Below are positions 954 to 36,610 of a DNA stretch of 40,316 nucleotides, piece after piece. The DNA is taken from assembly GCA_015055655.1 (NCBI GenBank), contig SVHW01000011.1, positions 1-40,316 on the forward strand. The letters run 5' to 3'. Position 1 is the stretch's first letter, and each line of letters opens with the position of its first letter. Made by a program: the position numbers and the translations under genes. The notes under the pieces were generated by a model. That model was not told the origin of the DNA, ran no database searches, and saw nothing but the letters and a program-made list of their open reading frames with translations. Source of the DNA: Clostridiales bacterium. Its GTDB lineage: Bacteria > Bacillota > Clostridia > Christensenellales > Borkfalkiaceae.

Positions 954-3900
954 ATGAAAAAAAGATTTTTAACATTACTTGTTACTCTCACGGCTATGCT
1001 TATGTGTATATTCGGTTTTTCTGCTTGTGGTAGGGTGGAATTTAAGGTAAACTTCGTGGTAGACGGCGCGGTATATTCTACGCTGAACACCAACGGCGAA
1101 GAAATTATCAAAATGCCCGAAAATCCCACGAAAGAAGATTATACTTTTGATGGCTGGTATTGGGACGAGGGTACTTGGCAAACGCCGTTTACGGCAAATT
1201 CCCTTTTAGACGCGCCCTTGTCTAGCGATATGAACGTATATTGCAAATGGAAACCGAACACTGTCAATGTGGAAAGTATCGCTTTCGATAAAACGGAAAT
1301 TTCGCTTCACGAAAACGATATAGCGTATCTCACTGCGACAATATTGCCTGAAAACGCTACGGATACGTCTGTTACATGGGAGAGTTCCAATACGTCTATC
1401 GCTACAGTTATTGGTGGAAAGGTGACTGCGATTCGTGTTGGTACGGCAACGATAAGCGCTACTACTACGGATGGTGGAAAAGTGGCTACTTGCGTTGTAA
1501 GTGTAGAGTCTATTCACGTGGAAAGCGTTTCCTTAAATATCACGTCGTTGACAATGAACAACGGCGAAAGCAAAACGTTGACGGCAACGGTACTGCCCAA
1601 TGATGCAACGGATAAAGGTGTGATTTGGCATAGCTCTAACGCTTCGATTGTAACGGTAGAAAATGGCGCAGTAGAAGCCGTTGGTTACGGCACGGCAACG
1701 ATTACCGTAACGACAATTGACGGCGAAAAAACGGCTACTTGCGTAATAGAAATAATAGAAGATAGAATTACGTTTGCAACGTTATCCGTTGACGGTGAAA
1801 CGGTATATGGGAAGGTGAGCAACGACACAACGACGTTCTCGTTTATCCAAGAAATAACTGAACACGGCAACGCCACCTATCAAATGTATAAAGAAATTAC
1901 TTGTGAAACGCTGATTGCTAGTAAATCGATTGCCTTGAAAGTGGGTGATAACACCGTTTACGTATTGCAAACGGTGGGTAGAGATTTAACGCTATACACG
2001 GTAACCGTGCGTCGTCGCCCTATGTATGACGTAACCTTTGATAGCAATGGTGGTACGGCGGTCGAAAAGCAGGTTATTGAGGAAGATTATTGCGCTACCG
2101 AGCCGATTACGACGAGAACGGGCTATGCTTTTGCTGGGTGGGATTACGATTTTTCTCAACCTATCACGCAAAACACTACGATAAAAGCAAATTGGACGGC
2201 AAACACCAATACGCCATATAAGGTAGAATATTACCTTCAAAACCTTGAAAACGACGATTATACGTTAGAAACGACGGAAAATAAAACGGGCACGTCGGAT
2301 ACGACGGCAAACGCGGAAATCAAAACGTTTGCTCACTTTACGCACGCGCCCAGTGAAACGGACAGTGGCAATATTGCACCCGATGGCTCGGCAGTGTTAA
2401 AGGTATATTATACGCGTGATAAATACACCGTTACGTTTGACGGCAACGGTGGTACGCTGGTAAACGGCGTTGATAGCCAAATAATAAAATACGGTGGGGA
2501 AGCAACCGCACCTACGTATGAAAGGGAAGGGTATACTTTTGATGGTTATGATAAGGCATTTACAAATATCAGTGAAGATACCATTGTAACGGCAAAATGG
2601 CAAATCAATCAATATACCCTTACCATTGTGTATGGCAACGGGCAAGAAGATAAAGTTATCACGCAAGATTATAACACGCCTATCGAAACAATTGCAGTCC
2701 CCGAACAACGCGCTGGATATGATTTTGATGGCTGGGATGCAATGCCTGAGACAATGCCTGCAAAAAATATGACGGTAAAGGCGAAATGGAAGGCAATTTA
2801 TAAGCTCTCGGGCGGTACGATTACGGGTTTGACAGATTACGGCAAAGCAAATTACACCGCATTAGATATCCCGTCGGCAATAGACGGCGTGGATATTACA
2901 AGCATAGGAGATTATGCGTTCTATAATTGCTACAGCTTAACAGAAGTCACAATTCCCGACAGCGTAACGAACATTAGTGAAGGGGCTTTTCGTGGATGCA
3001 GTGGTTTAACGGAAATCACGTTGCCGTTTGTGGGTGCAAGCAAGGGTGCTACGGGGTATAAATCGGTATTTGGATACATCTTTGGATATACCGCTTCGTC
3101 AAGCGATTCTACCATTAGTGGTGCAACGTATCAATATTATTATGATAACAATTATTATCATTATTATATACCTACGTCGTTAAAGAAAGTAACGATAACG
3201 GGCGGTCAGATAAACTCCGATGCGTTCTATAATTGTTCTAGCTTAACGGGTGTAGTAATTGGGGATAGTGTAACAAGAATTGGCTATGAAGCGTTCTGTG
3301 CTTGCAGTGGTTTAACGGAAATAATAATACCCAACAGTGTAACGAGCATAGGCAATTATGCGTTCTATGATTGTGACGGCTTAATGAGCGTAGAAATAGG
3401 AGACAGTGTAACGAGTATTGGCGATTATGCGTTCCGTACTTGCAGTGGTTTAACGGAAATAATAATCCCCAACAGTGTAACGAGCATAGGCAATTATGCG
3501 TTCTATGATTGTGACGGCTTAATGAGCGTAGTCATTGGTGACAGTGTAGAAAGCATTGGCTATGAAGCGTTCTATAATTGCTCCGGCTTAACGAGCGTAG
3601 AAATAGGCGACAGCGTAAAAACGATTAGCACTTCTGCGTTCTCTTATTGCAACAGCTTAACGAGTGTAGAAATAGGAGACAGTGTAGAAAGTATTGGCGA
3701 AGGGGCTTTCCGTGGATGCAGAGGTTTAACGGAAATCACGTTGCCGTTTGTGGGGGCAAGCAAGGATGCAACATGGTATCAATCGGTATTTGGGTATATC
3801 TTTGGATATACTACTCGTTCAAGCTCTTCTACCATCAGCGGTGCAACGTATCAATATAATAAAGGGAACAAGTATTATCATTATTATATACCTACGTCGT

Positions 3901-5249
3901 TAAAGAAAGTAACGATAACGGGCGGTCAGATAAACTCCGATGCGTTCTATAATTGTTCTAGCTTAACGAGTGTAGTAATTGGTGACAGTGTAGAAAGCAT
4001 TGGCTATGAAGCGTTCTATAATTGCTCCAGCCTAACGAGCGTAGAAATAGGCGATAGTGTAAAAATGATTTGCACTTCTGCGTTCTATTCTTGTTACAGA
4101 TTGACGGAAATCATAATCCCTGACAGCGTAACAAGCATTCACTATTCTGCGTTCAAAGGTTGCACCAGTTTAACCTATAATACATATGGCAATTGTAAAT
4201 ATTTAGGCGGCAAAGATAACCCTTATTACGCGTTGATAGAAACGGTATATGATGATTACAGCAGCTATACAATCCACGAAGATACGAAGATAATTGCTGA
4301 AAACGTGTTCAAAAATTGCGACAGGTTAACGGAAATAATAATCCCTGACAGTGTAACAAGCATTGGCGGTTCTGCGTTCTATGATTGCGACAGCTTAACG
4401 AGTGTAGAAATCGGTGACAGCGTAACAAGCATTGGCAATTATGCGTTCAAAGATTGTGACAGCTTAACGGAAATAATCATCCCTGACAGTGTAACAAGCA
4501 TTGACTATGAAGCGTTCTATGATTGCGACTGCTTAACGAATGTAGAAATTGGTGACAGCGTAACAAGCATTGGCGAACGTGCGTTCTATGATTGTGACAG
4601 CTTAACGGAAATAATCATCCCTGACAGTGTAACAAGCATTGGCGATTCTGCGTTCTCTTCTTGCGGCAGCTTAACCTATAACACATATGGCAATTGTAAA
4701 TATTTGGGCAGCAAAGATAACCCTTATTACGCGTTGATAGGAACAGTAAATGATGATTACAGCAGTTATACAATCAACGAAGATACGAAGATAATTGTGG
4801 GTAGTGCATTTTGGGGTTGTTCTCATATGGGTAGAATTGTCATCCCTGACAGTGTAACGAGCATTGGCGATTATGCGTTCTATTATTGTGACAGCTTAAC
4901 GAGTGTAGAAATCGGTGACAGCGTAACAAGCATTGGCAATTATGCGTTCTATTATTGTACCAGCTTAACGAATGTAGTAATCGGTGACAGCGTAACAAGC
5001 ATTGACGCTTATGCGTTCTATAATTGCGATAGCTTAACGGAAATAATCATCCCTGACAGTGTAATTGTTATTGATTGTTGTGCGTTCTTTTGTTGTGATC
5101 AATTAACCATATTTTGTGAAAGTGATAGTAAATTGGAAGGTTGGGACGATTATTGGAATTGTTGTTTTAGAGTTTGGTCTGATACATCTCAGAAATTCAT
5201 AAATGTTTCTTATCTATCTGTTGTTTGGGGATATGTAGATACGAATTAA
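954..5249 (+). CDS. BspA-like leucine-rich-repeat surface lipoprotein with Big2 and InlB-type repeats
   Basis: A 1431-residue exported lipoprotein. Residues 1-25 form a lipoprotein signal peptide ending FSAC, with lipidated Cys25. Next come a Listeria-Bacteroides (InlB B-type) repeat at about 30-85, two Big2 immunoglobulin-like domains at about 103-265, and further InlB/MucBP-like repeats at about 360-610 with FDGW/FAGW motifs. Residues 615-1385 are tandem 23-residue LRR_5 repeats of the form SVTSIGDYAFYNC-SLTEIIIPD, and a short unique tail follows. There is no LPXTG, so anchoring is by lipid. BspA-like proteins of this kind bind host matrix or other bacteria; the ligand here is unknown. The ATG has a GGTGG-type site 6 bases upstream and is controlled by the structured leader. 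The gene fills most of the tRNA-Tyr island and is followed 38 bases later by a GIY-YIG gene. Confidence 0.9.
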   Translation: MKKRFLTLLVTLTAMLMCIFGFSACGRVEFKVNFVVDGAVYSTLNTNGEEIIKMPENPTKEDYTFDGWYWDEGTWQTPFTANSLLDAPLSSDMNVYCKWKPNTVNVESIAFDKTEISLHENDIAYLTATILPENATDTSVTWESSNTSIATVIGGKVTAIRVGTATISATTTDGGKVATCVVSVESIHVESVSLNITSLTMNNGESKTLTATVLPNDATDKGVIWHSSNASIVTVENGAVEAVGYGTATITVTTIDGEKTATCVIEIIEDRITFATLSVDGETVYGKVSNDTTTFSFIQEITEHGNATYQMYKEITCETLIASKSIALKVGDNTVYVLQTVGRDLTLYTVTVRRRPMYDVTFDSNGGTAVEKQVIEEDYCATEPITTRTGYAFAGWDYDFSQPITQNTTIKANWTANTNTPYKVEYYLQNLENDDYTLETTENKTGTSDTTANAEIKTFAHFTHAPSETDSGNIAPDGSAVLKVYYTRDKYTVTFDGNGGTLVNGVDSQIIKYGGEATAPTYEREGYTFDGYDKAFTNISEDTIVTAKWQINQYTLTIVYGNGQEDKVITQDYNTPIETIAVPEQRAGYDFDGWDAMPETMPAKNMTVKAKWKAIYKLSGGTITGLTDYGKANYTALDIPSAIDGVDITSIGDYAFYNCYSLTEVTIPDSVTNISEGAFRGCSGLTEITLPFVGASKGATGYKSVFGYIFGYTASSSDSTISGATYQYYYDNNYYHYYIPTSLKKVTITGGQINSDAFYNCSSLTGVVIGDSVTRIGYEAFCACSGLTEIIIPNSVTSIGNYAFYDCDGLMSVEIGDSVTSIGDYAFRTCSGLTEIIIPNSVTSIGNYAFYDCDGLMSVVIGDSVESIGYEAFYNCSGLTSVEIGDSVKTISTSAFSYCNSLTSVEIGDSVESIGEGAFRGCRGLTEITLPFVGASKDATWYQSVFGYIFGYTTRSSSSTISGATYQYNKGNKYYHYYIPTSLKKVTITGGQINSDAFYNCSSLTSVVIGDSVESIGYEAFYNCSSLTSVEIGDSVKMICTSAFYSCYRLTEIIIPDSVTSIHYSAFKGCTSLTYNTYGNCKYLGGKDNPYYALIETVYDDYSSYTIHEDTKIIAENVFKNCDRLTEIIIPDSVTSIGGSAFYDCDSLTSVEIGDSVTSIGNYAFKDCDSLTEIIIPDSVTSIDYEAFYDCDCLTNVEIGDSVTSIGERAFYDCDSLTEIIIPDSVTSIGDSAFSSCGSLTYNTYGNCKYLGSKDNPYYALIGTVNDDYSSYTINEDTKIIVGSAFWGCSHMGRIVIPDSVTSIGDYAFYYCDSLTSVEIGDSVTSIGNYAFYYCTSLTNVVIGDSVTSIDAYAFYNCDSLTEIIIPDSVIVIDCCAFFCCDQLTIFCESDSKLEGWDDYWNCCFRVWSDTSQKFINVSYLSVVWGYVDTN
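2980..3245 (+). repeat. intragenic 720-bp-offset duplication, first copy
   Basis: This block of about 265 bases recurs with a few substitutions at 3700-3965, exactly 720 bases (240 codons) later. It encodes a GAFRGC repeat, an insertion containing VFGYIFGYT, and the following LRR unit. It looks like a segmental duplication of several LRR units. Confidence 0.85.
3700..3965 (+). repeat. intragenic 720-bp-offset duplication, second copy
   Basis: Second copy of 2980-3245. The flanks are identical over long runs (for example from the lysine codons at 3901 onward). The differences cluster in the middle, where the two loops read differently. Confidence 0.85.
4170..4297 (+). repeat. intragenic 501-bp-offset duplication, first copy
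   Basis: About 125 bases encoding a non-LRR insert (YNTYGNCKYLG followed by DNPYYALI) recur at 4671-4798, an offset of 501 bases or 167 codons. The insert interrupts the 23-residue LRR_5 register in both places. Confidence 0.8.
4671..4798 (+). repeat. intragenic 501-bp-offset duplication, second copy
   Basis: Second copy of 4170-4297, with several base changes. Together with the 720-base pair it shows the LRR region grew by in-frame duplication. Confidence 0.8.
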
Positions 5250-8696: not shown

Positions 8697-10196
8697 ATGA
8701 ACAAGTTTTGTAAGTTTCTTGGTTTTGACGAAAGCAAGAAAACAACGGTAAGAACTGAAATCATGGCAGGCGTCGTAACCTTCTTGGCGATGGCGTATAT
8801 TCTTACGTTGAATCCCTTGCTTATGTTAGACCTGTTTAACTCGTCTACTTACGGATATATGTATTCTTCCGTGTTCGTGGCGACGGCACTTGGCGGCTTT
8901 TTAGGGACGTTGTTCATGGCTATTTATGCGAAGTTGCCTTTAGCGCAAGCACCCGGCTTAGGATTAAATTCGATGGTGGGCGGTTTGCTTGGCGGTAGCT
9001 TGATTGGTTTCTCGCTGTCGTTTGGGAACTCCATGTTGCTCGTCTTTATTTCGGGGTTATTATTTTTAGGGTTAAGTATCTTTAAAATTCAAGGTACGTC
9101 TATCAGAAAGATTATTTTTGATTGTATTCCCGAATCGATACGAAAAGCAATTTCCGTTGGTATTGGTTTATTCATCGCCTTAATTGGGCTTGCCAATGCA
9201 GGGATTGTTGTCGTAGGGGACGGTACGGTTATCGATATGGTTAAATTATCGACGTGGGATATGGCGTCTGTTGGTCCTGCTTTGGTTTGCCTCTTCGGTT
9301 TTTTGGTTATCGTCGTACTTTCTCATTTCAAGATTAAAGGTGCGGTTATTATCGGTATCATCGCCGCAACGTTGCTGGGTATGATTCCCAGTATCGGCGT
9401 GACGAAATGGTCGGGAGAAACTTGGGCGTTTTGGGAACATTTTGCCAACTTTTTCTCGTTCGACCCCTCTAAGGGCGGCGCGTTCTTTGCTGTGTTTACC
9501 GAAGGTTTCTCTTTTGCTGACGGCGTGCCCGTAATGTCGCTTATTATGACGGTTATTACTTTCTGTATGATTGATATGTTCGACACGATGGGTACTTGCG
9601 TTGGTTGCTGTTCGGCGGCAGGTCTTATAACGGAAGACGGTACGCCGGTAAACTATGATAAAATTATGGTTTGCGACTCGGTTGCAACGTGTGCAGGTGC
9701 ATTGTTTGGTACGTCCACGGTTACGACGTTTGTTGAATCGGGCGCAGGGATTTCTGCAGGTGGTAAAACGGGGCTTACGTCGCTCGTTACCGCAGGTTTA
9801 TTCCTGTTCTCTATATTCTTATTGCCCTTGTTTGCGTCTATTCCCGGCGCAGCAGCTTCGTCTGCCTTGATTTGGGTTGGTTGCTTGATGTTGAAAGGCG
9901 TAAAAGACGTGAAAGTGGACAGCGTGAAAGAATTCGTGCCTACCTTCCTTACGATTGCTATGATGCCCCTTTGTTATTCCATTACGGAAGGTATTGGATT
10001 TGGTATTCTTTCGTATGTGATTATTGATATTTTCGGCTATCTTGGCGATTTAATTTCGTACAAAATCAAATCGAAGAAGGCAAATGCAACGGAAGACGGC
10101 GAAGAAATTAAGAAACCCGTTTGGGATTTGAAAGTGGTTACTATCGTTATAGCCTTGCTTTTTGTGGTATATTTCTTTGTTCCAACTACTTTTTAA
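8697..10196 (+). CDS. NCS2-family purine permease (AzgA/PbuG-like)
   Basis: A 499-residue membrane transporter for hypoxanthine, guanine or adenine, driven by a cation gradient. The start motif GVVTFLAMAYILTLNP and the APGLGLN and MFDTMGT motifs are typical of the AzgA-like branch of NCS2 permeases. About 12-14 membrane segments are evident, and a charged loop (KSKKANATEDGEE) lies before the last segment. The next gene, 24 bases on, is hypoxanthine phosphoribosyltransferase. Uptake and trapping of the base as nucleotide are therefore encoded together. The start has AAGGAG 6-7 bases upstream. Confidence 0.9.
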   Translation: MNKFCKFLGFDESKKTTVRTEIMAGVVTFLAMAYILTLNPLLMLDLFNSSTYGYMYSSVFVATALGGFLGTLFMAIYAKLPLAQAPGLGLNSMVGGLLGGSLIGFSLSFGNSMLLVFISGLLFLGLSIFKIQGTSIRKIIFDCIPESIRKAISVGIGLFIALIGLANAGIVVVGDGTVIDMVKLSTWDMASVGPALVCLFGFLVIVVLSHFKIKGAVIIGIIAATLLGMIPSIGVTKWSGETWAFWEHFANFFSFDPSKGGAFFAVFTEGFSFADGVPVMSLIMTVITFCMIDMFDTMGTCVGCCSAAGLITEDGTPVNYDKIMVCDSVATCAGALFGTSTVTTFVESGAGISAGGKTGLTSLVTAGLFLFSIFLLPLFASIPGAAASSALIWVGCLMLKGVKDVKVDSVKEFVPTFLTIAMMPLCYSITEGIGFGILSYVIIDIFGYLGDLISYKIKSKKANATEDGEEIKKPVWDLKVVTIVIALLFVVYFFVPTTF

Positions 10197-25997: not shown

Positions 25998-27611
25998 ATG
26001 AAGGAATTTAGACATTTCGGCGTAATGCTTGATTGCTCGCGTGACGGGGTAATGAAAGTAAGCGCAGTGAAGCAAATGATTGATTGTTTGCAAAAAATGG
26101 GATACAATACGTTGGAATTGTACACCGAGGATACGTACGAGGTGGAAGGTGAACCGTATTTCGGGTATTTGCGTGGACGTTACACGAAAGCGGAATTGAA
26201 AGATATCGACGCGTATGCGAAGTCGAAGGGGATAGAATTGATTCCCTGTATTCAAACGTTGGCGCATTATACGGCGCTCGTTCGTCATCCTGCGTATGCA
26301 AAAATCGTTGACACCAATGATATTTTGTTGATTGACGAACCGGAAACGTACGTTTTAATCGATAAAATTTTTGCGACGATTGCGGAGTGCTTTACTTCGC
26401 GCAACGTCAACATCGGTATGGACGAAGCGCATATGGTTGGGCTTGGTAGATACTTAGATAAACACGGCTATGAGAACCGTAACGAGTTAATTCTTCGCCA
26501 CTTGAATAAAGTGTCGGAAATTGCAGAAAAATACGGATTTACCGCGCATATGTGGAGTGATATGTTCTTCCGTTTAAAGACGAAAGGGGATTATTACGTG
26601 GACGAACCGCTTTCTTTCCCCGAAGAAATCACCCAAAAAGTGCCTAAAAACGTAGAACTCGTATATTGGGATTATTATCACTCGAAACAACAAACGTACG
26701 ACGCTATGTTCGAATCGCATAAATGTTTCGAGGGGAATATTTGGTTTGGCGGCGGCGCTTGGAGCTGGAACGGCTTTGCGCCTTTGAACTGGTTTACCGT
26801 ACAAACGATGGTTCCTGCGATGAAGAGCGTTATCAAAAACGACATCCAAGACGTTATGATAACCTGTTGGGGGGATAACGGCAAGGAATGTTCCTTCTTC
26901 TCCCTGTTGCCTGCTTTGTACGCGGCGCGCCAATACGCGGAAGGCAATTTTGATATGGAAAGCATTGAAAAGGGCTTCTATAAATTGTTTAAAGTGCCTT
27001 TTGCTGATTTTATGTTGTTGGATTTGCCTAACAAAACGGCGCGTAAAATGGTGGATTGGCAAGGGATTGAAAAAATTCAAAATCCTTGCAAAACGTTGTT
27101 GTATTGCGACCCGCTTATGGGTATTTTCGATAATCTTATCGCTCAAGAACGCGCGATTCCTTACGGCGACTACGCAATGCAGTTGAAAAAGGCGAGCAAG
27201 CGCGCCGGTAAATACGATTATTTGTTTGATACGCTTTCCAAATTATGCTCGGTATTGGAATTAAAGGCAGAATTGGGCGTACGCACCCGTCGCGCGTATC
27301 AGGCGAAAAATAAGAAAGATTTACTGAACTGCATTAAAGAATTTGCGGAAGTGGAAAACAGAATCGGCGTATTCCACGCAGCGTTTATGGACCTTTGGGA
27401 TAGAGAGAACAAGCCGCAGGGTTGGGAAATTCACGATATGCGTCTTGGTGGCTTGATGCGCCGCGTAAAGACTTGTCGTGAAAAGTTGCAAAAATACGTG
27501 AAGGGTAAATTATCGAAGATTGACGAGTTGGAAGAGGAAATTTTGCCTTACGGCGACGGTACTTTCCAAGAAAACGTCCATACGTTTATCGTTTCGATGA
27601 ACTTGGCGTAA
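25998..27611 (+). CDS. GH20 family beta-N-acetylhexosaminidase (cytoplasmic)
   Basis: A 537-residue protein with no signal peptide. The N-terminal barrel motif GYNTLELYTEDTYEVEGEP, LIPCIQTLAH (81-90) and the catalytic pair Asp142-Glu143 in IGMDEAHMVGLG match the intracellular GH20 type known from streptococci (GH20C-like). WFGGGAW, near 250, fits the substrate-binding Trp region. It would remove terminal GlcNAc or GalNAc from imported oligosaccharides in the cytoplasm. The second half (from about 340) is helical. It is a single-gene unit with its own promoter. Confidence 0.85.
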   Translation: MKEFRHFGVMLDCSRDGVMKVSAVKQMIDCLQKMGYNTLELYTEDTYEVEGEPYFGYLRGRYTKAELKDIDAYAKSKGIELIPCIQTLAHYTALVRHPAYAKIVDTNDILLIDEPETYVLIDKIFATIAECFTSRNVNIGMDEAHMVGLGRYLDKHGYENRNELILRHLNKVSEIAEKYGFTAHMWSDMFFRLKTKGDYYVDEPLSFPEEITQKVPKNVELVYWDYYHSKQQTYDAMFESHKCFEGNIWFGGGAWSWNGFAPLNWFTVQTMVPAMKSVIKNDIQDVMITCWGDNGKECSFFSLLPALYAARQYAEGNFDMESIEKGFYKLFKVPFADFMLLDLPNKTARKMVDWQGIEKIQNPCKTLLYCDPLMGIFDNLIAQERAIPYGDYAMQLKKASKRAGKYDYLFDTLSKLCSVLELKAELGVRTRRAYQAKNKKDLLNCIKEFAEVENRIGVFHAAFMDLWDRENKPQGWEIHDMRLGGLMRRVKTCREKLQKYVKGKLSKIDELEEEILPYGDGTFQENVHTFIVSMNLA

Positions 27612-27891: not shown

Positions 27892-27927
27892 AATAGGTGC
27901 AACACAGCCGTTGCACCTATTTGTTTT
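27892..27927 (+). terminator. attenuator hairpin upstream of purE
   Basis: A perfect 12-bp stem (27892-27903 with 27910-27921, loop acagcc) followed by TGTTTT. It lies between the pur promoter and purE, so it must act as conditional termination or RNA processing. The purE ribosome site AAGGAG comes right after. Confidence 0.75.
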
Positions 27928-27947: not shown

Positions 27948-28439
27948 ATGAGCAAAGTTGGTATTTTGATGGGAAGCAAATCGGATTTCGACGTAGTGAA
28001 ACCTGCGGTTTCCGTATTGAAAAAATTTGGCGTGGAAACGGAAGTTAGGGTAATTTCCGCGCACCGTACGCCCGACGAGGCGCACGAATTCGCTGCGACG
28101 GCGAAGGAAAAAGGGATAGAAGTGATTATTTGCGCGGCAGGAAAAGCGGCGCATCTTGGCGGCGTTATCGCGGCGTTTACAACGCTCCCCGTTATCGGTT
28201 TGCCTGTAAAAACGGATATGATGGGCGGATTGGATAGCTTACTTTCCATCGTCCAAATGCCGGCAGGGATTCCCGTAGCGACGGTAGGTGTCAACGGAGG
28301 TGAAAACGCTGGGCTTTTGGCGTTGCAAATGCTCGCGATTAAATATCCGGAAATTGAAAAACAGCTCGTTGCATATAAAGAGGCAATGAAAACGAAAATC
28401 AACAACGACGACGAAGCGTTGCAAGCAATGCTCGGCTAA
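27948..28439 (+). CDS. purE: N5-carboxyaminoimidazole ribonucleotide mutase, PurE class I
   Basis: A 163-residue cytoplasmic enzyme of purine synthesis that converts N5-CAIR to CAIR (or makes CAIR from AIR in class II types). The family motifs are MGSKSD (8-13), SAHRTP (37-42) with the key His39, and AGKAAHL (64-70). SIVQMP appears in the second half. Length and motifs fit the bacterial octameric class I. purK is not in the window, so the CO2-fixing partner must be elsewhere or unnecessary. AAGGAG is 9-10 bases before ATG. It is the first structural gene of the operon. Confidence 0.95.
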   Translation: MSKVGILMGSKSDFDVVKPAVSVLKKFGVETEVRVISAHRTPDEAHEFAATAKEKGIEVIICAAGKAAHLGGVIAAFTTLPVIGLPVKTDMMGGLDSLLSIVQMPAGIPVATVGVNGGENAGLLALQMLAIKYPEIEKQLVAYKEAMKTKINNDDEALQAMLG

Positions 28440-28471
28440 GGGAACGGACGGTTAATCCATAGGAGAAAAGT

Positions 28472-29881
28472 ATGGCAGTATTTGGTATTTTTGGGGTAAA
28501 GACGGAGAACGTGGCGTCGAGTACCTATTACGGTTTATACGCATTGCAGCATAGAGGACAAGCCTCTTGCGGTATCGTCGTCAATGACGACGGCGTGTTT
28601 CACGCGTATAAAGATTCTGGGCTCGTAAACGAGGTGTTTACGCACCGTTTGTTAAAAGAACTTGGGCTTGGGCAAATGGCGCTCGGCAACGTTCGCTACG
28701 GCACGAGCAAATCGAAAGAAAGAGTAAACGCAGAGCCGATTCTTATCAATCACGTCAAGGGGAAAATGGCAATTTCGCACGACGGCGCGTTGGTAAATTA
28801 CGCGGAGCTGCGCAGAGAATTTGAGATGCAAGGCTGTATTTTCCATACGACGAACGAGGCAGAGGTGATTGCTTGCGCGATTACGAGGGAACGTATCACC
28901 GCGCCTTCGATAGAAGAAGCCATCAATCGTGCGATGGATAAATTAAAGGGCGGCTACTCGTTGATGGTGATGTCGCCGCAAAAATTGATAGCGGCGCGCG
29001 ACGAAAACGGATTGCATCCGCTTTGCTACGGCGTACGCGACGATGGAGAATACGTAATTTCCAGCGAGAGCTGTGCACTTAATACGGTGGGTGCGAAGTT
29101 CGTACGGGAAATAGACCCGGGTGAAATCGTGGTGTTTACCAAAGAAGGCATCAAAAGTATCCGCGACCATTGCGATAAAAAACCTGAACGGCTTTGCGTG
29201 TTCGAGTATTTATATACCGCCCGTCCCGATTCGGATATAGACGGTTGTTCGGTGCATCTTGCGAGAAAACGTGCGGGGAAATTCCTTGCCAAAGCGCACC
29301 CCGTTGAGGCGGACGTCGTTATCGGCGCTCCCGATTCGGGTATCGACGCGGCAATTGGGTACGCGGAAGAATCGGGGATTCCTTACGGGCTTGGGTTGAT
29401 TAAGAATAAATATATCGGCAGAACGTTCATCGACCCCGGTCAAAACGTGCGCGAGGATAAGGTGAAAATTAAGCTGAACCCCGTGCCTGAGACGATTAAA
29501 GATAAGCGTGTAATCTTGGTAGACGATTCGATTGTGCGCGGTACGACGTGCGTACGCGTAGTGAAATTGCTCCGCGACGCTGGGGCGAAGGAAATTCATA
29601 TCCGTTCGTCTGCGCCGGAGTTTTTAAATCCCTGTTATTACGGCACGGATATCGGCTCGAAAGACGAATTGATTGCCTGCAAGTATAGCGCAGAGGAAAT
29701 GGCGAAGATATTCGGCGCGGATTCGGTAGGTTTCCTGCCTTTAGAAGACGTGTTTAAATTGGGCGCGCCGGGAAATTGTAAAGGGTATTGCGCGGCGTGT
29801 TTTAACGGAGAATATCCCACCGATATCCCCGTAGAACAAAAGAATAAGTACGAACAAAAGATTTCGGACAATAAAAACTAA
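28472..29881 (+). CDS. purF: amidophosphoribosyltransferase PurF lacking the N-terminal cysteine nucleophile
   Basis: A 469-residue protein of the committed step PRPP to phosphoribosylamine. The PRTase half is complete: VILVDDSIVRGTT (347-359) and GRTFIDPGQ. All four iron-sulfur ligands of the Bacillus type are in place: Cys242, Cys388, Cys440 and Cys443. The glutaminase half is altered. The mature protein should begin with Cys (CGVFGI), but this one starts MAVFGIFG, and an in-frame TAG at 28460 rules out a longer propeptide. The oxyanion-hole HNG is HDG at 103-105, and the expected glutamine-binding Asp reads Glu (NEAE, 128-131); Arg75 is kept. Glutamine use is therefore doubtful; ammonia-dependent activity is possible. 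It lies 32 bases after purE with AGGAG 6 bases before ATG. Confidence 0.92.
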   Translation: MAVFGIFGVKTENVASSTYYGLYALQHRGQASCGIVVNDDGVFHAYKDSGLVNEVFTHRLLKELGLGQMALGNVRYGTSKSKERVNAEPILINHVKGKMAISHDGALVNYAELRREFEMQGCIFHTTNEAEVIACAITRERITAPSIEEAINRAMDKLKGGYSLMVMSPQKLIAARDENGLHPLCYGVRDDGEYVISSESCALNTVGAKFVREIDPGEIVVFTKEGIKSIRDHCDKKPERLCVFEYLYTARPDSDIDGCSVHLARKRAGKFLAKAHPVEADVVIGAPDSGIDAAIGYAEESGIPYGLGLIKNKYIGRTFIDPGQNVREDKVKIKLNPVPETIKDKRVILVDDSIVRGTTCVRVVKLLRDAGAKEIHIRSSAPEFLNPCYYGTDIGSKDELIACKYSAEEMAKIFGADSVGFLPLEDVFKLGAPGNCKGYCAACFNGEYPTDIPVEQKNKYEQKISDNKN

Positions 29882-29911: not shown

Positions 29912-30937
29912 ATGGCTATTTCTTATAAAGACAGCGGCGTAGACGTAACGAGAGGATACAAAGCGGTAGAACTCATGAAAAAACACGTAAAATCCACGTA
30001 TAACGAAAACGTTATCGGGGATTTAGGCTCTTTCGGCGGTTTCTTCTCGATTGCAAACGAAAAGATGGAAGAACCCGTTTTGGTTGCGGGTACGGACGGG
30101 GTAGGAACGAAACTGAAATACGCGTTCCTTTTGGAAAAACACGATACGATTGGTATCGACGCGGTGGCAATGTGCGTAAACGACATCGTTTGTCAAGGCG
30201 CAAAACCCTTATTCTTCCTTGATTATTACGCTTGCGGCAGATTGTATCCCGAAGCGGAATCGGAAGTGGTAAAAGGTATTGCGGAGGGGTGCCGTCAGGC
30301 AGGCTGCGCGCTCATCGGCGGTGAAACGGCGGAAATGCCGGGCTTTTATCCCGACGGGGAATACGACCTTGCTGGCTTTGCTGTAGGTATCGTCGACAAA
30401 AAGAAGGTTATTAACGGCAAAAATATCGTGCCCGGCGACGTGATTATCGGTTTGAAATCGACGGGGGTACATTCTAACGGTTATTCGTTGGTTAGAAAGC
30501 TTTTTGGGGATAGCGATAAAGCGGCTTTGGAAGCGTACGACGAACAGCTTGGTGCGTCGGCGGCGGAAGTATTGTTAAAGCCTACGAAAATTTACGTAAA
30601 GAGTATTCTTTCTCTCATTGAAAAAGTGGACGTAAAGGGTATCGCGCATATTACGGGCGGTGGTTTCATCGAAAACGTACCCAGAATTTTGCCTGAAGGC
30701 GTGGCGGCGGAAATCGAAAAGAATTCGTATGAAGTTCCCGCTGTGTTTAAAGTTATGCAACAACGCGCAGGTATCACCGACGAGCAAATTTACAATACGT
30801 TCAATATGGGTATCGGTATGATGGTTGTCGTCGATGCAAAGGACGTAGATAAAGCGATGGAATCGTTGAAGGCAAGCGGTGAAGACGTCGTTGTTATCGG
30901 TAAGACGGTTGCAGGCAAAGGCGTTATTTTAAAATAA
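29912..30937 (+). CDS. purM: phosphoribosylformylglycinamidine cyclo-ligase (AIR synthetase)
   Basis: A 341-residue enzyme that uses ATP to close FGAM to AIR. The start YKDSGVDVTRGYKAV is characteristic. VAGTDGVGTKLK (about 58-69) holds the substrate-binding loop. The acidic D-rich motif GIDAVAMCVNDI (about 79-90) and the GGGFIENVPRILPEG stretch fit the family. It sits between purF and purN and has GGAG 9-10 bases upstream. The spacing of 30 bases to purF and 9 bases to purN indicates one transcript. Confidence 0.96.
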   Translation: MAISYKDSGVDVTRGYKAVELMKKHVKSTYNENVIGDLGSFGGFFSIANEKMEEPVLVAGTDGVGTKLKYAFLLEKHDTIGIDAVAMCVNDIVCQGAKPLFFLDYYACGRLYPEAESEVVKGIAEGCRQAGCALIGGETAEMPGFYPDGEYDLAGFAVGIVDKKKVINGKNIVPGDVIIGLKSTGVHSNGYSLVRKLFGDSDKAALEAYDEQLGASAAEVLLKPTKIYVKSILSLIEKVDVKGIAHITGGGFIENVPRILPEGVAAEIEKNSYEVPAVFKVMQQRAGITDEQIYNTFNMGIGMMVVVDAKDVDKAMESLKASGEDVVVIGKTVAGKGVILK

Positions 30938-30946
30938 GGGAAAGTT

Positions 30947-31564
30947 ATGAAAAAAATTGCGGTATTCGCCTCGGGTGGCGGCACGGATTTTCAATCGATT
31001 ATCGACGCAAACGAGTGTGAAAAGTTTTGTGAAATAGCATATTTAGTGGCGTCTAAACCACAAATCGGCGCGATAGGACGCGCGGAAAAACACGGCATTG
31101 CTACGCTCGTTTACGATAAGACGACGGGCGAGAGCAAGGACGCTTTTTACGAAAGAGTGGCGAAAACGCTGAAAGACGACGGTGTAGAATACGTCGTTTT
31201 GGCGGGTTGGTTATTGGTTGTGCCTGCGGCGTTTATCAACGAGTTTGAGGACAGAATTATCAATATTCATCCTTCGCTGATACCTTCGTTTTGCGGTATG
31301 GGATATTACGGCTTACGCGTACACGCGGCGGCGATTGAATACGGCGTGAAGGTAAGCGGCGCGACGGTACATTTTGTATCGGCAGACGTAGACGGTGGCG
31401 CAATTATTATGCAAAGGGCGGTGGAAGTAAAAGACGACGACACGCCCGAAACGTTGCAAGCGCGCATCTTAAAAGAAGAACACGTGATGTTGCCTACTTG
31501 CGTGAAATGGCTTTGTCAAGGCAAAATTATCAAAGTGGGTAGAAAGGTAAACGTTTTGCAATAA
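30947..31564 (+). CDS. purN: phosphoribosylglycinamide formyltransferase
   Basis: A 205-residue folate-dependent enzyme that formylates GAR with 10-formyl-tetrahydrofolate. The N-terminal nucleotide loop is ASGGGTDFQS. The catalytic triad is visible: Asn106 and His108 in INIHPSLIPSF, and Asp149 in VSADVDGGA. Length is typical. In the common clostridial order purH follows purN; here the next gene is purD, and the 48-base gap has no purH remnant. Confidence 0.95.
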   Translation: MKKIAVFASGGGTDFQSIIDANECEKFCEIAYLVASKPQIGAIGRAEKHGIATLVYDKTTGESKDAFYERVAKTLKDDGVEYVVLAGWLLVVPAAFINEFEDRIINIHPSLIPSFCGMGYYGLRVHAAAIEYGVKVSGATVHFVSADVDGGAIIMQRAVEVKDDDTPETLQARILKEEHVMLPTCVKWLCQGKIIKVGRKVNVLQ

Positions 31565-31612: not shown

Positions 31613-32887
31613 ATGAATGTTTTGGTGATTGGAAACGGTGGCAGAGAACACGCTATCGTGCAGGCATTGAGCAAATCCCCGAAGGTGGATAAAATTTTCG
31701 CAATGAAAGGTAACGCAGGCATCGGGGAGATTGCTGAACTCGTCAACGTGGATTATTGCGACGTGAAGGCGGTTGGCGATTGGGTAGACGCGCATAAGGA
31801 AATCGATTATACGGTTATCGCGCCGGACGACCCGCTTGCTTTGGGGCTTGCAGACGAGCTGGAAAGCCGTGGACACCGTGTTTTTGGGCCGAGAAAGAAC
31901 GCCGCGATTATCGAGGCGAGTAAGGCCTTTTCCAAAGAACTTATGAAAAAATATAATATCCCGACGGCGAAATATGAAACGTTTAACGATTACGAAAAGG
32001 CAAAATCGTACGTGGAAACGTGCGATATTCCCGTGGTGTTAAAGGCGGACGGACTCGCGCTGGGGAAAGGCGTTTTAATATGCAAGACGCGTGAAGAGGC
32101 ACTTGACGGAATTAGGGAAATGATGCTCGATAAAAAATTCGGCTCGGCTGGCAGTAAAGTCGTCGTGGAAGAATTTTTGGAAGGCCCTGAGGTGTCCGCG
32201 CTTGCATTTACCGACGGCAAAACGATGAAACCGATGATTACGAGTTGCGACCATAAACGCGCGTTTGATAACGACGAGGGTTTGAATACGGGCGGTATGG
32301 GTACATTTTCTCCTGCGCCGTTCTATGGCGAGAAAACGGAAAAGGAAGTTATGGAAAAGATTATGCTTCCTACGATGAACGCAATGAACGCCGAAGGCAG
32401 GACGTTTAAAGGCGTGCTGTATTTTGGGCTTATGAAGACGAAAGACGGGATGAAGGTTATCGAATATAATTCTCGTTTTGGCGACCCTGAAACGCAAGTG
32501 CTTTTGCCGATGTTAAAAACCGACCTTATGGAAATTTTCGAGGCTATCACGGACGAACGACTTGCCGATATCGATATTGAGTGGGATACGGGCGCTTGCG
32601 TATGCGTCGTGCTTGCCAGCGGCGGCTACCCCGTTAAATACGAAAAGGGCAAAGAAATCACGTTTGGGGATTTGGACAAAGACGTTATTTTGTGCCACGC
32701 AGGTACGAAGATGAAAGACGGAAAGCTCGTTACCGACGGCGGTAGAGTGCTTGGCGTATGCGCCAAGGGCGAAACGATTGAAGAAGCGAGAAAGAAAGCG
32801 TACGCTAACGTAGAGAAAATTGCATTTGAAGGGATGCATTTTAGAAAAGATATCGGTATCAAATATCGCAATATTGAAAGAGAATAA
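31613..32887 (+). CDS. purD: phosphoribosylamine-glycine ligase (GAR synthetase)
   Basis: A 424-residue ATP-grasp enzyme that joins phosphoribosylamine and glycine. The start VLVIGNGGREHA and the ATP-grasp stretch VVLKADGLALGKGV (near 140-155) are typical. The later NSRFGDPETQVLLP motif is the family signature. It uses the unstable product of PurF, which matters given the odd PurF in this operon. Ribosome site GGAG lies 8 bases before ATG. Confidence 0.96.
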   Translation: MNVLVIGNGGREHAIVQALSKSPKVDKIFAMKGNAGIGEIAELVNVDYCDVKAVGDWVDAHKEIDYTVIAPDDPLALGLADELESRGHRVFGPRKNAAIIEASKAFSKELMKKYNIPTAKYETFNDYEKAKSYVETCDIPVVLKADGLALGKGVLICKTREEALDGIREMMLDKKFGSAGSKVVVEEFLEGPEVSALAFTDGKTMKPMITSCDHKRAFDNDEGLNTGGMGTFSPAPFYGEKTEKEVMEKIMLPTMNAMNAEGRTFKGVLYFGLMKTKDGMKVIEYNSRFGDPETQVLLPMLKTDLMEIFEAITDERLADIDIEWDTGACVCVVLASGGYPVKYEKGKEITFGDLDKDVILCHAGTKMKDGKLVTDGGRVLGVCAKGETIEEARKKAYANVEKIAFEGMHFRKDIGIKYRNIERE

Positions 32888-32908: not shown

Positions 32909-35900
32909 ATGATTTATAGAATTTTTGTAGAAAAGAAAGACAACGTACAAGCGAGAAAAGAACAAGCGGATATTAAAACGCTGTTGAAAATCGACACGGA
33001 AGATTTCCGTTTGGTGCTCCGTTACGACGTGGAAGGGTTAAGCGAGGAAGAACTTAACGCCGCGCTTGGCACGGTATTTTCCGAACCGCCCGTTGACGAC
33101 GTGTATTTGGAAACGTTGGAAATCCCTGCAGGGTATAAGGCGTTTGCCGTTAGCTATTTAACGGGACAATACGACCAGCGCGCGGACAGTGCGGCGCAAT
33201 GCGTGCAGCTTTTGACGAGAAAAGCGCGTCCTATGGTGAAGTGCGCAAGGGTATATCTCGTAAAAGGCGTTACCTGTCAGCAACTTGCGGCGATTAAAAA
33301 ACATATCATCAACCCCGTAGAAAGCGAAGAAGTGGGGTTTGAAAAACCGACGACGTTGAAACAGGCGACGGTAGAAGGCGCGCCCGTTAGCAACGTAAAC
33401 GGATTCATTGATATGTCCGACGAACAAATTAAGGCTTACCATAAAGAAATTGGGTTCGCGATGAGCGCGCTCGACTTGGCGTTCGTTCGCGATTATTTCA
33501 AGAGTGAAAACCGTAATCCTACCGAAACGGAATTAAAAGTTATCGATACGTATTGGTCAGACCATTGTCGCCATACGACGTTCGCAACCGAATTGAAAAA
33601 CGTAAAAATCAACTCGGCTAACCCCGTTATTGAAAAAGCGTATCACTTATACGAAGACTTGTATAAAGAACTCAACGGTAACCGTCCCGACAAGTATCCT
33701 TGTTTGATGGATTTGGCGACGATTGCCGCAAAGAAATTAAAGAAAGACGGAAAACTTGACAATCTTGATATTTCCGACGAAATCAATGCTTGTTCTATCT
33801 GTATCGAAGCGGAAATTGACGGCAAGACGGAACAATACCTTGTTATGTTCAAAAACGAAACGCATAACCACCCGACGGAAATCGAGCCGTTCGGTGGCGC
33901 GGCTACTTGTCTTGGCGGCGCTATCCGTGACCCGTTGTCGGGTAGAACGTACGTATATCAAGCGATGCGTGTAACGGGCGCGGCAGACCCCAGAGAAAAA
34001 TTGGAAGATACGCTGGCGGGTAAACTTCCCCAACGCGCCATTACGCAACGCGCGGCGGCTGGGTTCTCGTCTTACGGCAACCAAATCGGCTTGGCGACGG
34101 GCATTGTTGACGAAGTGTATCACGAAGGGTATAAAGCGAAGCGTTTGGAAACGGGTTTCGTCGTTGGTGGCGCAAGAAAGGAAATGGTATATCGTGAAGC
34201 GCCCAAGGCTGGGGACGTGATTATCCTGCTCGGTGGCGAAACGGGACGTGACGGCTGCGGAGGTGCAACCGGTTCGTCCAAGGCGCACGATTCCCACTCG
34301 GTAGAAACGTGCGGCGCGGAAGTACAAAAAGGTAACGCGCTCACGGAAAGAAAATTGCAACGTTTGTTCCTGAATAAGGCGGCGACGAGAAAGATTAAAA
34401 AATGTAACGACTTTGGTGCAGGCGGCGTTTCGGTTGCTATTGGCGAGCTTGCTGACGGGTTGAATATTGATTTGGATAAAGTGCCTAAAAAATACGACGG
34501 TTTGAACGGCACGGAACTTGCAATTTCCGAATCGCAAGAACGTATGGCTGTGGTAGTGGCTGAAAAGGACGTAGAGGCGTTTATCGCGCTTGCGGCGGAG
34601 GAAAACCTTTCTGCTACGCCTGTGGCGGTGGTTACCGATACGGGACGCATGAAGATGTTCTTGAAAGGTAAGGCAATCGTAGATATTTCCCGTGAATTCT
34701 TGAACACGAACGGCGTAAAACAAGAAGCTGACGTAGAGATTACGGATAAGAAAACGACGTGGTTTGATAAAAAACAAGGGCTTTCCTTTGCGGAAGAAAC
34801 GAAGAAAGTGCTTGGCGATTTGAACGTGTGCGCAAAGAAAGGGCTTTCGGAAACGTTCGACTCGACGATTGGCGCAAGAACGGTGTTTATGCCTTGGGGC
34901 GGTAAAAATCAAGCGACGCCCGCAATCGCTATGGCGGCGAAAATCTGCGGTGGCGAAACGGACGTTTGTACCGTTTCCGCGTACGGCTATTCTCCTTACC
35001 TTATGGAAACGAGTCCGTTTATCGGCGCAATTTACTCCATTGTAGGCTCGGTATCCAAAGTGGTGGCTACGGGCGCGAAATATAGCGATATTCGCTTGAC
35101 GTTGCAAGAATTCTTCCAACGTATGACGGGCGAAGCGAAGGTATGGGGTGTTCCTGCCTCTGCGCTCCTTGGCGCGGTGTACGCGCAAATCGGTTTAGGG
35201 CTTGGCGCAATCGGCGGTAAAGACAGTATGAGTGGTACGTTTGAAAGCATCCACGTGCCGCCTACGCTTATTTCGTTTGCGTTAGCGCCCGCTAAGGCAA
35301 GCAAGCTTATCACCAACGTTTTGAAGGGCGGCGAAAAACTTTACTATATCCCCGTGCCTAAGGACGAAAATTCCGTGCCCGATTTCGAGGGATTGAAAGC
35401 GGTGTACGAAGAAGTGTACAAAAACATTGAAAACGGGAATATCACGTTTGCGACGGTTGCGGAAAACGGCGGTATCGGCGCGGCGGTTATCAAATCGGCG
35501 CTCGGCAACGGCGTTGGCGTTACGTTTGATATGTCTGCGGACGAATTGTACAGCGAAGCGTACGGTGATTTAGTAGTTTCGTTGAAAGACGAAACGGCGT
35601 TTAATGCGTCCGTTTTGAAAAAATACGTAGGACAGGTATGCGGCGAAGCGTTTACGTGTGGAAATGACAGCGTAGCGCTTGCTTGCGCGAACGACGCGTA
35701 CATGGGTGCGCTTGAAAGCGTCTTTTCCATCACTGCGCCGGCAGACGGCAAGGCGGAAAACTGCGATTATACGGGTGGCGCGAAATATACGAACATTGCA
35801 ACGAAAGTGGCAAAACCGCGCGTATTTATCCCCGTATTCCCCGGTACGAACTGCGAAATTGATACGGCGAGAAGATTCGTTCTCGCAGGCGCAGACGTAG

Positions 35901-36610
35901 AAACGGTGGTTGTGAAAAACCGTTCTGCTGCTGATATTGAAGATAGCGTAGAAAGAATCGTGAAAGCGATTAAGAGAGCGAATATCGTGGCTTTCCCCGG
36001 CGGTTTCTCGGGCGGCGACGAACCGGACGGCAGCGGTAAGTTTATCGCAACGACCTTCCGTAATCCGTATATTGCAGAGCAATTGGAAGAACTTCTTAAT
36101 AACCGTGACGGTTTGGCAATCGGTATTTGTAACGGTTTCCAAGCGCTCATCAAGCTTGGGCTTGTGCCTTACGGTCACGTAAAAGAGATGACGGCAGATT
36201 CGCCTACGCTTACGTTTAACAACATCTCTCGTCACGTATCCACGATTGTAGACGTGCGCGTAGCGTCCAACCTTTCGCCTTGGCTTTCCGCTTGTAAGGT
36301 GGGTGAGGTTTATAAAGTACCCGTATCTCACGGCGAAGGTAAAATCGTTGCGCCTATCGCAGCGCTTGAAGAGATGAAGAAGAACGGGCAAGTAGCTACG
36401 CAATACGCCGATTTAAGCGGCAAAGCGACGATGGTATCGCCGTTTAACCCCAACGGCTCGATGTGGGCAATCGAAGGTATCACCTCGCCCGACGGTAGAG
36501 TTTTGGGTAAAATGGGACACAGCGAACGTATTGGCGATAACCTTTACAAGAACGTCGAAGGCAATTTCGATATGAAAATTTTTGAAAGCGGCGTACGTTA
36601 CTTTAAATAA
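32909..36610 (+). CDS. purL: phosphoribosylformylglycinamidine synthase, fused PurL-PurQ
   Basis: A 1233-residue enzyme that converts FGAR to FGAM using glutamine and ATP. The N-terminal part, the AIR-synthetase-like core (GGAATCLGGAIRDPLSG, 330-346) and the C-terminal class I glutaminase domain (from about 970) are on one chain. The glutaminase triad is complete: Cys1074 in GICNGFQ, His1141 and Glu1143 in VSHGEGK. The organisation and length match the single-chain form known in Clostridia and relatives, and no separate purS or purQ is needed. So glutamine use is kept here, in contrast to PurF. It lies 21 bases after purD. Confidence 0.95.
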   Translation: MIYRIFVEKKDNVQARKEQADIKTLLKIDTEDFRLVLRYDVEGLSEEELNAALGTVFSEPPVDDVYLETLEIPAGYKAFAVSYLTGQYDQRADSAAQCVQLLTRKARPMVKCARVYLVKGVTCQQLAAIKKHIINPVESEEVGFEKPTTLKQATVEGAPVSNVNGFIDMSDEQIKAYHKEIGFAMSALDLAFVRDYFKSENRNPTETELKVIDTYWSDHCRHTTFATELKNVKINSANPVIEKAYHLYEDLYKELNGNRPDKYPCLMDLATIAAKKLKKDGKLDNLDISDEINACSICIEAEIDGKTEQYLVMFKNETHNHPTEIEPFGGAATCLGGAIRDPLSGRTYVYQAMRVTGAADPREKLEDTLAGKLPQRAITQRAAAGFSSYGNQIGLATGIVDEVYHEGYKAKRLETGFVVGGARKEMVYREAPKAGDVIILLGGETGRDGCGGATGSSKAHDSHSVETCGAEVQKGNALTERKLQRLFLNKAATRKIKKCNDFGAGGVSVAIGELADGLNIDLDKVPKKYDGLNGTELAISESQERMAVVVAEKDVEAFIALAAEENLSATPVAVVTDTGRMKMFLKGKAIVDISREFLNTNGVKQEADVEITDKKTTWFDKKQGLSFAEETKKVLGDLNVCAKKGLSETFDSTIGARTVFMPWGGKNQATPAIAMAAKICGGETDVCTVSAYGYSPYLMETSPFIGAIYSIVGSVSKVVATGAKYSDIRLTLQEFFQRMTGEAKVWGVPASALLGAVYAQIGLGLGAIGGKDSMSGTFESIHVPPTLISFALAPAKASKLITNVLKGGEKLYYIPVPKDENSVPDFEGLKAVYEEVYKNIENGNITFATVAENGGIGAAVIKSALGNGVGVTFDMSADELYSEAYGDLVVSLKDETAFNASVLKKYVGQVCGEAFTCGNDSVALACANDAYMGALESVFSITAPADGKAENCDYTGGAKYTNIATKVAKPRVFIPVFPGTNCEIDTARRFVLAGADVETVVVKNRSAADIEDSVERIVKAIKRANIVAFPGGFSGGDEPDGSGKFIATTFRNPYIAEQLEELLNNRDGLAIGICNGFQALIKLGLVPYGHVKEMTADSPTLTFNNISRHVSTIVDVRVASNLSPWLSACKVGEVYKVPVSHGEGKIVAPIAALEEMKKNGQVATQYADLSGKATMVSPFNPNGSMWAIEGITSPDGRVLGKMGHSERIGDNLYKNVEGNFDMKIFESGVRYFK

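Follow-up and report, generated by a model that had tools for sequence, protein, structure and literature searches.

The purF gene of the window (the whole 40,316-nucleotide stretch analysed here) encodes an amidophosphoribosyltransferase that has lost the catalytic cysteine of its glutaminase domain. As judged from the sequences of the lineage, the enzyme probably aminates PRPP with ammonia and belongs to a wider shift, shared across the lineage, in which nucleotide synthesis draws on free ammonia in place of the glutamine amide. The glutaminases of PurF, CarA and GuaA are lost in the same genomes, the dead PurF glutaminase domain is under purifying selection, and the transferase motifs of PurF are intact. 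Textbook accounts have glutamine donate the amide nitrogen of nucleotides, and purine synthesis is committed at the PurF step. A lineage whose PurF, CarA and GuaA have lost their glutaminases, with those of PurL and HisH intact in the six and three genomes read, is a natural experiment on why enzymes usually make and tunnel ammonia internally, and makes it testable whether environmental ammonia can replace glutamine, at which steps, and why a dead domain persists.

The purF gene of the window and its operon

The window purF (28472-29881, + strand) encodes 469 aa that open with MAVFGIFG and match the curated PurF model TIGR01134 over its full length (463 bits, cut-off 350). It is the one amidophosphoribosyltransferase gene found by profile search in its own genome (G000; 1.38 Mb, 96.7% complete). 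In alignment with B. subtilis PurF, Met1 falls in the Cys1 column and no exposed N-terminal Cys is present, as an initial annotation made from this gene had claimed. Its further claim that no longer N-terminus is possible also stands. An in-frame TAG (28460-28462) overlaps the AGGAG region, and the only codons between this stop and the ATG (GAG, AAA and AGT) include no start codon; thus, there is no room for a propeptide or a Cys. The ribosome-binding site and the ATG together span 28461-28474 (+ strand), with a well-placed AGGAG at 28461-28465. A hidden upstream Cys-containing start, or a frameshift, was considered and rejected, as no start codon lies ahead and the same start is read in many relatives. 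In two relatives (L024 and L054) the few codons open ahead of Met1 include one for Cys, yet neither gene has a start codon upstream of it.

The Ntn-type glutaminase half (28472-29197; Pfam GATase_7/GATase_6) is conserved as a domain, with its catalytic residues gone. The changes in the window protein, all on the + strand, include: (i) HDG for HNG at residues 103-105 (28778-28786), as initially annotated, (ii) Glu for Gln85 (28733-28735), and (iii) Glu at residue 129 for B. subtilis Asp127 (28856-28858). The Arg-Tyr pair of the glutamine site (B. subtilis Arg72-Tyr73) is retained (28694-28699). The phosphoribosyltransferase half (29195-29878, + strand) has an intact PRPP loop, VDDSIVRGTT (29519-29548), and all four cysteines (C242, C388, C440 and C443) at what we take to be the Fe-S positions of B. 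subtilis-type PurF. An AlphaFold model of the protein (24-row alignment) has a mean pLDDT of 60, with residues 1-98 below 50, and no structural claim is based on it.

The surrounding operon is purE (27948-28439, TIGR01162), purF, purM (29912-30937, TIGR00878), purN (30947-31564, TIGR00639), purD (31613-32887, TIGR00877) and purL (32909-36610, TIGR01857), all on the + strand and each of the five partners above the cut-off of its model. PurD takes phosphoribosylamine as the partner of PurF, and PurL is of the large form with its glutaminase residues (GICNGF, SHGEG and HSER) intact. Between the upstream gene and purE, a hairpin (GGTGCAAC...GTTGCACC, 27893-27925) followed by a T-rich stretch appears by eye to be terminator- or attenuator-like; Rfam reports no riboswitch in the window. 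A family 20 glycoside hydrolase (25998-27611; PF00728, PF18088) is encoded directly upstream of the pur genes and could relate to amino-sugar supply. Elsewhere in the window are a xanthine/uracil-type permease (8697-10196, PF00860), which is a possible base-salvage route, and, after four tRNA genes (18-444), a gene for a 1431-aa surface-type protein (954-5249) with BspA leucine-rich repeats, List-Bact repeats and Big_2 domains.

Comparison of 54 distinct Cys-less with 35 distinct Cys-bearing PurF proteins (B. subtilis numbering) separates decayed from retained positions. In the Cys-less proteins Cys1 is Met (54/54), Gly2 is Ala, Gly or Ser, and Gln85, which is Gln in 35/35 Cys-bearing proteins, is Glu (54/54). 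At position 29 the acidic residue, presumably part of the proposed catalytic triad as its third member, has become Ala in 43/54; Asn102 is Asp in 43/54 and Asn in 6/54; His101 is kept in 16/54, Gly77 in 4/54 and Asn104 in 1/54. Arg26, Tyr73 and Glu129 are kept in all 54, Arg72 in 53 and Gly103 in 51. The initial annotation had listed Glu for the glutamine-site Asp as a further loss; this holds for the species of the window but not generally, as Asp127 is kept in 48/54 and is Glu in 6/54. Together with Arg72 and Tyr73, Asp127 is taken here to belong to the glutamine site of PurF, and its retention along with that of Arg72 indicates that part of the glutamine pocket survives. All 54 proteins have the PRPP loop, the flexible loop (KNKYIGRTFI) and the four Fe-S cysteines, so that the annotation's statement that the loop and cysteines are intact holds for each of them. 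The retention of Asn102 in several deeper members (L067, L071-L073 and L076) suggests that Cys1 was lost first and the oxyanion site later, whereas L039, a member of the derived group that still reads HNG, speaks against a simple sequence of events.

Selection on the dead domain is purifying. In Cys-less PurF (162 close pairs) the two halves have a median omega of 0.087 (glutaminase) and 0.073 (transferase), with a maximum of 0.142, compared to 0.124 and 0.101 in Cys-bearing PurF (211 pairs); these values are only approximate owing to high synonymous divergence (median dS about 1.5). At 60-80% identity the ratio of glutaminase to transferase differences is 1.31-1.55 in Cys-less versus 1.02-1.08 in Cys-bearing PurF, whereas among pairs 80-99% identical the two sets scarcely differ (1.21-1.32 versus 1.23-1.30). 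Constraint on the dead glutaminase half may have eased, yet is still present, and the domain is presumably kept as a scaffold and channel.

Distribution and origin of the Cys-less PurF

All genomes surveyed are drafts and many are incomplete. In the genus, 44 of 57 genomes encode a Cys-less PurF, with the N-terminus read in each; six encode a Cys-bearing PurF (G001, G002, G003, G054, G055 and G056), in six PurF is missing or present as a fragment only (G022, G023, G024, G027, G028 and G032), and the remaining one, G034, has just a much more divergent PurF-like protein. Profile search found no other PurF above the family cut-off in 43 of the 44 Cys-less draft genomes, the genome of the window included; the idea that the window gene is a spare copy beside a canonical purF is thus rejected. 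The exception, G050, has a second PurF, with the Cys, which shares a 4.4-kb contig with a full GuaA; this contig is probably stray in view of its small size, its gene content and the tree place of its PurF outside the Cys-less clade. A scan of sequenced genomes adds 52 Cys-less cases among 80 named records, which overlap partly with the 44 genus genomes. The titles of the Cys-less RGIG records name roe deer, water deer, sheep, goat and yak gut, while SIG titles give no host. The members of the Cys-less lineage are uncultured bacteria, mostly of the ruminant gut.

Among 204 full-length PurF readings from 345 fetched loci (partial rows L110 and L150 left out, some genomes counted more than once), the Cys1 column is Met in 102, Cys in 100 and out of register in two, in both of which a Cys follows a few residues further on. 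The recurrence of Met across many loci means that the start of the window gene is not a sequencing error. An order-level search with the Cys-less alignment (248 genomes, E up to 1e-150) matched from query position 1 in G000 only; at the Cys1 column of its 30 loci, Met stands in G000 and Cys in 27, while two are out of register with a Cys a few residues further on. In the family sample (301 genomes), judged from the genome table, no Cys-less PurF is seen in other genera, the matches listed all scoring at least about 503 bits, which is above the Cys-less score. The deeper members of the Cys-less group (L067, L070-L076, L106 and L108) are 65-73% identical.

The PurF tree (77 rows; 32 Cys-less and 45 Cys-bearing) uses only the transferase half, which keeps the Cys1 trait from shaping its topology. 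All Cys-less rows fall on one side of a single branch (SH-aLRT 99 in a quick tree, one change), nested inside Clostridia PurF, and the sister rows (support 89) are Cys-bearing PurFs of the same family, order and genus (G054). The Cys-less PurF of the window's type appears to have arisen once, and the loss first seen in a single gene is lineage-wide, fixed throughout a clade that counts 54 or more distinct proteins.

CarA, GuaA and other glutaminases of the lineage

In the CarA of G000, GICLGHQ has become GLGLGHQ and FHPEA has become FAPEA. CarA could be read in 35 of the 44 Cys-less-PurF genomes (not in G006, G012, G017, G021, G033, G039, G042, G047 or G048), and its catalytic Cys is replaced in 35/35 (Gly 32, Asp 2, Glu 1) and its catalytic His in 34/35, the column being cut off in the remaining one. 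The Cys, His and Glu are kept in 6/6 Cys-PurF genomes. The reading comprised 50 rows, with no usable CarA in G006 and G034 (the latter read separately) and a 48-aa end only in G052b. The lineage CarA thus combines loss of the Cys with retention of the domain, and the G000 protein still scores above the CarA cut-off. For dead CarA at 50-80% identity, the ratio of differences in the glutaminase half to those in the other half is 1.06-1.16, versus 0.79-0.88 for Cys-bearing CarA. One genome (G053) has an additional intact CarA on the same contig as a full PyrG, which is probably stray. Within Cys-less genomes, the contigs G050:C14, G053:C33 and G052:C38 carry Cys-bearing PurF, CarA, full GuaA or PyrG and are probably mis-binned, judged by size, gene content and the tree place of the G050 copy.

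In 39 of the 44 Cys-less-PurF genomes only the synthetase half of GuaA remains, encoded by open frames of 326-352 aa; seven of these were read as protein, as were the short forms of G022 and G034, and the rest are assigned by frame length and model coverage. The G000 protein matches the GMP synthase model (512 positions) from 187 to 512 only, and its gene follows a frame that we take to be IMP-dehydrogenase-like; the short frame of G025 contains one stop. Both short and full GuaA occur in G050 and G052, and GuaA above the cut-off was not found in 5/44. In Cys-PurF genomes GuaA is full-length in five of six, with none found in G002. The PF00117 proteins of G000 are CarA and HisH only, and its sole PF13522 match is PurF; thus, no separate GuaA glutaminase of the PF00117 family is found in this genome. 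The loss of the CarA and GuaA glutaminases in the same genomes extends the change beyond PurF, although the association is not a large-sample statistic, as the CarA loss amounts to two independent events in the genus and the short GuaA to one lineage shared with G034.

No PyrG was detected in 42 of the 44 Cys-less-PurF genomes, several of which are at least 93% complete; G053 has a full and G052 a partial PyrG, and it is present in 6/6 Cys-PurF genomes. Without PyrG, CTP may come from salvage or an unknown enzyme. GlmS is found in 6/44 Cys-less-PurF genomes, where MCGIVG and HNG are intact, and in 4/6 Cys-PurF genomes. Of the 38 genomes in which GlmS was not found, 36 encode a PF01182 protein (40/44 overall), as do all six Cys-PurF genomes; the G000 protein is NagB by TIGR00502, and the others may be either NagB or 6-phosphogluconolactonase. 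NagB can run in reverse with ammonia, and in these genomes the PF01182 proteins (L354:459-1190 among them) might in this way give glucosamine-6-phosphate from ammonia.

Glutamine use is probably not lost altogether. The PurL glutaminase is intact (GICNGF and HGEG) in the six genomes read, the HisH Cys and HPE are intact in the three genomes read (two among the 44), and a glutamine synthetase match is present in 40/44, the G000 enzyme being type III. An early idea of total loss was dropped on these grounds; glutamine is available and is probably still used.

The PurF, CarA and GuaA part of this pattern recurs in G034 (79% complete). In this genome a divergent 'type B' PurF-like protein is encoded between purE and purM (L140:3976-5400, - strand), and profile search found no other PurF, although at this completeness a canonical copy may have been missed. 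Like the window PurF, type B is PurF-like, has Met at the place of Cys1 and keeps the PRPP loop. Unlike it, type B falls below the TIGR01134 cut-off (175 bits against 350) and has lost the QHRG and HNG motifs; the L140 protein starts MGGFFG and reads TRRGG for QHRG. Type-B proteins occur in 16/299 genomes of a phylum sample (E up to 1e-60), with further loci that encode no N-terminal Cys at L141:3962-5365 (- strand) and L151-L167, and the gene adjoins a canonical purF in three loci (L151, L171 and L184). The G034 CarA (GVGLGYQ and QPE) has lost both Cys and His and falls in a different CarA lineage; the AU test rejects one common origin of the dead CarA proteins (p 1.5e-6, 37 rows versus 11). 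The G034 GuaA is the short form and of the same lineage as the other short GuaA proteins, which is thus shared by descent or transfer, and full-length PyrG and GlmS are kept. G034 is therefore a partial, independent repeat of the PurF-CarA-GuaA part only. Beyond the genus, 26 genomes of other genera were hand-picked from about 41 whose best PurF score fits type B alone. With match sizes standing for names, 21 of the 26 have no CarA-, GuaA- or PyrG-sized glutaminase match (exceptions G087, G120, G123, G157 and G163). Hand-picked Cys-PurF controls have CarA- and GuaA-sized matches in 6/6 and PyrG-sized matches that are full in four, cut in one and missing in one (G081). Judged by match size, this pattern is suggestive only; the 21 may carry glutaminase-free versions or may lack the pathways.

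Ammonia as the probable nitrogen donor

With Cys1 absent and HNG decayed, glutamine would not be able to serve as the direct donor to the window PurF by the known mechanism. The best reading is that free ammonia serves the lineage as amino donor at the PRPP, carbamoyl phosphate and XMP steps, for which the Cys-less PurF', E. coli PurF Cys1 mutants, the ATPPase subunit of GMP synthetase and CPS I provide precedents. The initial annotation had left three options open, namely ammonia, another glutaminase or a different reaction. Ammonia fits best, as the loss is fixed in the clade, the transferase motifs are unchanged, the purE-F-M-N-D-L order is kept, and the CarA and GuaA glutaminases are lost too; the chemistry is what we infer from these features. 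Ammonia would pass from the old glutamine pocket along the interdomain channel of PurF, meet PRPP in the intact transferase site and yield phosphoribosylamine for PurD, with the glutaminase domain likely retained for shaping the channel and the closed transferase site. CarA would be a dead glutaminase that leaves CarB using ammonia, as in vertebrate CPS I, and GuaA would persist as an ammonia-using synthetase half. Glutamine synthetase spends ATP for each amide, and the saving of this ATP would be the likely gain. A habitat ammonia concentration was not found in the open-access papers searched, the accessible part of PMC5552732 giving culture values only.

Two other readings concern the pocket itself. 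It may conceivably, though this is unlikely, have been rebuilt as an ammonium-capture port that binds NH4+, takes a proton and feeds NH3 to the channel, within a PurF/CarA/GuaA shift to ammonia made more than once in the family; the change of Gln85 to Glu in all 54 proteins and of Asn102 to Asp in 43 places acidic residues at or near the old glutamine position. It is improbable that the pocket serves as an allosteric sensor of glutamine or glutamate instead of a substrate site. Arg72, Tyr73 and Asp127 are kept in 53, 54 and 48 of the 54 proteins despite the loss of Cys1, which would suit such a role, but their retention may be structural, and the pocket appears rebuilt given that Asn104 and Gly77 are changed in nearly all proteins, His101 and Asn102 in most, and Gln85 in every one.

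Against direct use of free ammonia by PurF, a separate glutaminase (the PurL domain, HisH or an unidentified protein) could supply the ammonia in trans. The intact residues of PurL (six genomes) and HisH (three), and the place of purL in the same operon as purF, make such a donor imaginable. Yet the purE-to-purL cluster holds no glutaminase gene except that of PurL, the retained PurF domain would probably hinder docking, and CarA and GuaA would need donors as well, in a genome where, for the two glutaminase families searched, the PF00117 matches are limited to CarA and HisH and the PF13522 match is PurF itself; supply in trans is accordingly held to have little chance. Decay of the pathway, with purines imported and PurF becoming a pseudogene, is very unlikely. 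It would account for the greater relative divergence of the glutaminase half in Cys-less than in Cys-bearing PurF at 60-80% identity, though the two are alike at 80-99%, and would suit the permease of the window and the lack of detectable PyrG in 42/44 genomes; median omega is nevertheless 0.07-0.09 in both halves, the transferase motifs are invariant in 54/54 and the pur cluster is intact. The chance of an artefact, be it a sequencing or assembly error, a wrong start or a canonical PurF missed elsewhere, is close to nil: the genome is a draft at 96.7% completeness and G050 has its Cys-bearing copy, but the identical Cys-less start recurs in 44 genus genomes and in 52 of the 80 partly overlapping named records, from many separate assemblies, and 43 of the 44 genomes have no second PurF above the cut-off, the G050 copy being probably a stray.

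Ammonia use by an amidotransferase of this kind has parallels in the accessible parts of several sources. In E. coli PurF, replacement of Cys1 by Ala or Ser abolishes glutamine use and leaves ammonia use, and the PurF' of Crenarchaeota, a PurF-like protein without N-terminal Cys near purine genes, is proposed to be possibly ammonia-dependent (PMC3261824). The ATPPase subunit of two-subunit GMP synthetase takes external ammonia in vitro (PMC10526850), vertebrate CPS I is missing its glutaminase Cys and has free ammonia as sole nitrogen source (PMC7657897), and single-domain NAD synthetase uses ammonia without a glutaminase domain of its own (PMC3376133).

The window PurF shares with canonical PurF (TIGR01134; B. 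subtilis 1gph, 1ao0) the two-domain architecture, Fe-S cysteines, PRPP and flexible loops and pur-gene setting, and differs in having no Cys1 or propeptide, a decayed HNG and Glu for Gln85. Like PurF', as far as the accessible account of the latter goes, it is a Cys-less PurF-like protein near purine genes; by contrast, PurF' accompanies a Cys-bearing PurF, whereas PurF of the window's type is the only PurF found above the cut-off (43/44), nests in Clostridia PurF and belongs to a lineage in which CarA and GuaA are affected too. On a similarly partial view of its source, CPS I shares loss of the glutaminase Cys with retention of the domain, and CarA of the lineage has a CPS I-like loss in a bacterium, while PurF is of another reaction and class. 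The ammonia-using NAD synthetase and the GMP synthetase subunit, as described in the portions available, parallel the short GuaA found here; the window PurF differs from both in keeping its dead domain rather than shedding it. A Cys-less PurF as such is thus already known from PurF', as is the ammonia idea proposed for it. As far as the open-access literature shows (titles and abstract starts), in which no prior report of joint PurF, CarA and GuaA glutaminase loss was found, what is new is a Cys-less sole PurF in bacteria and this joint loss across a lineage. The finding carries a warning for annotation, as the dead PurF, the dead CarA and the short GuaA of G000 all score above the cut-offs of glutamine-dependent models.
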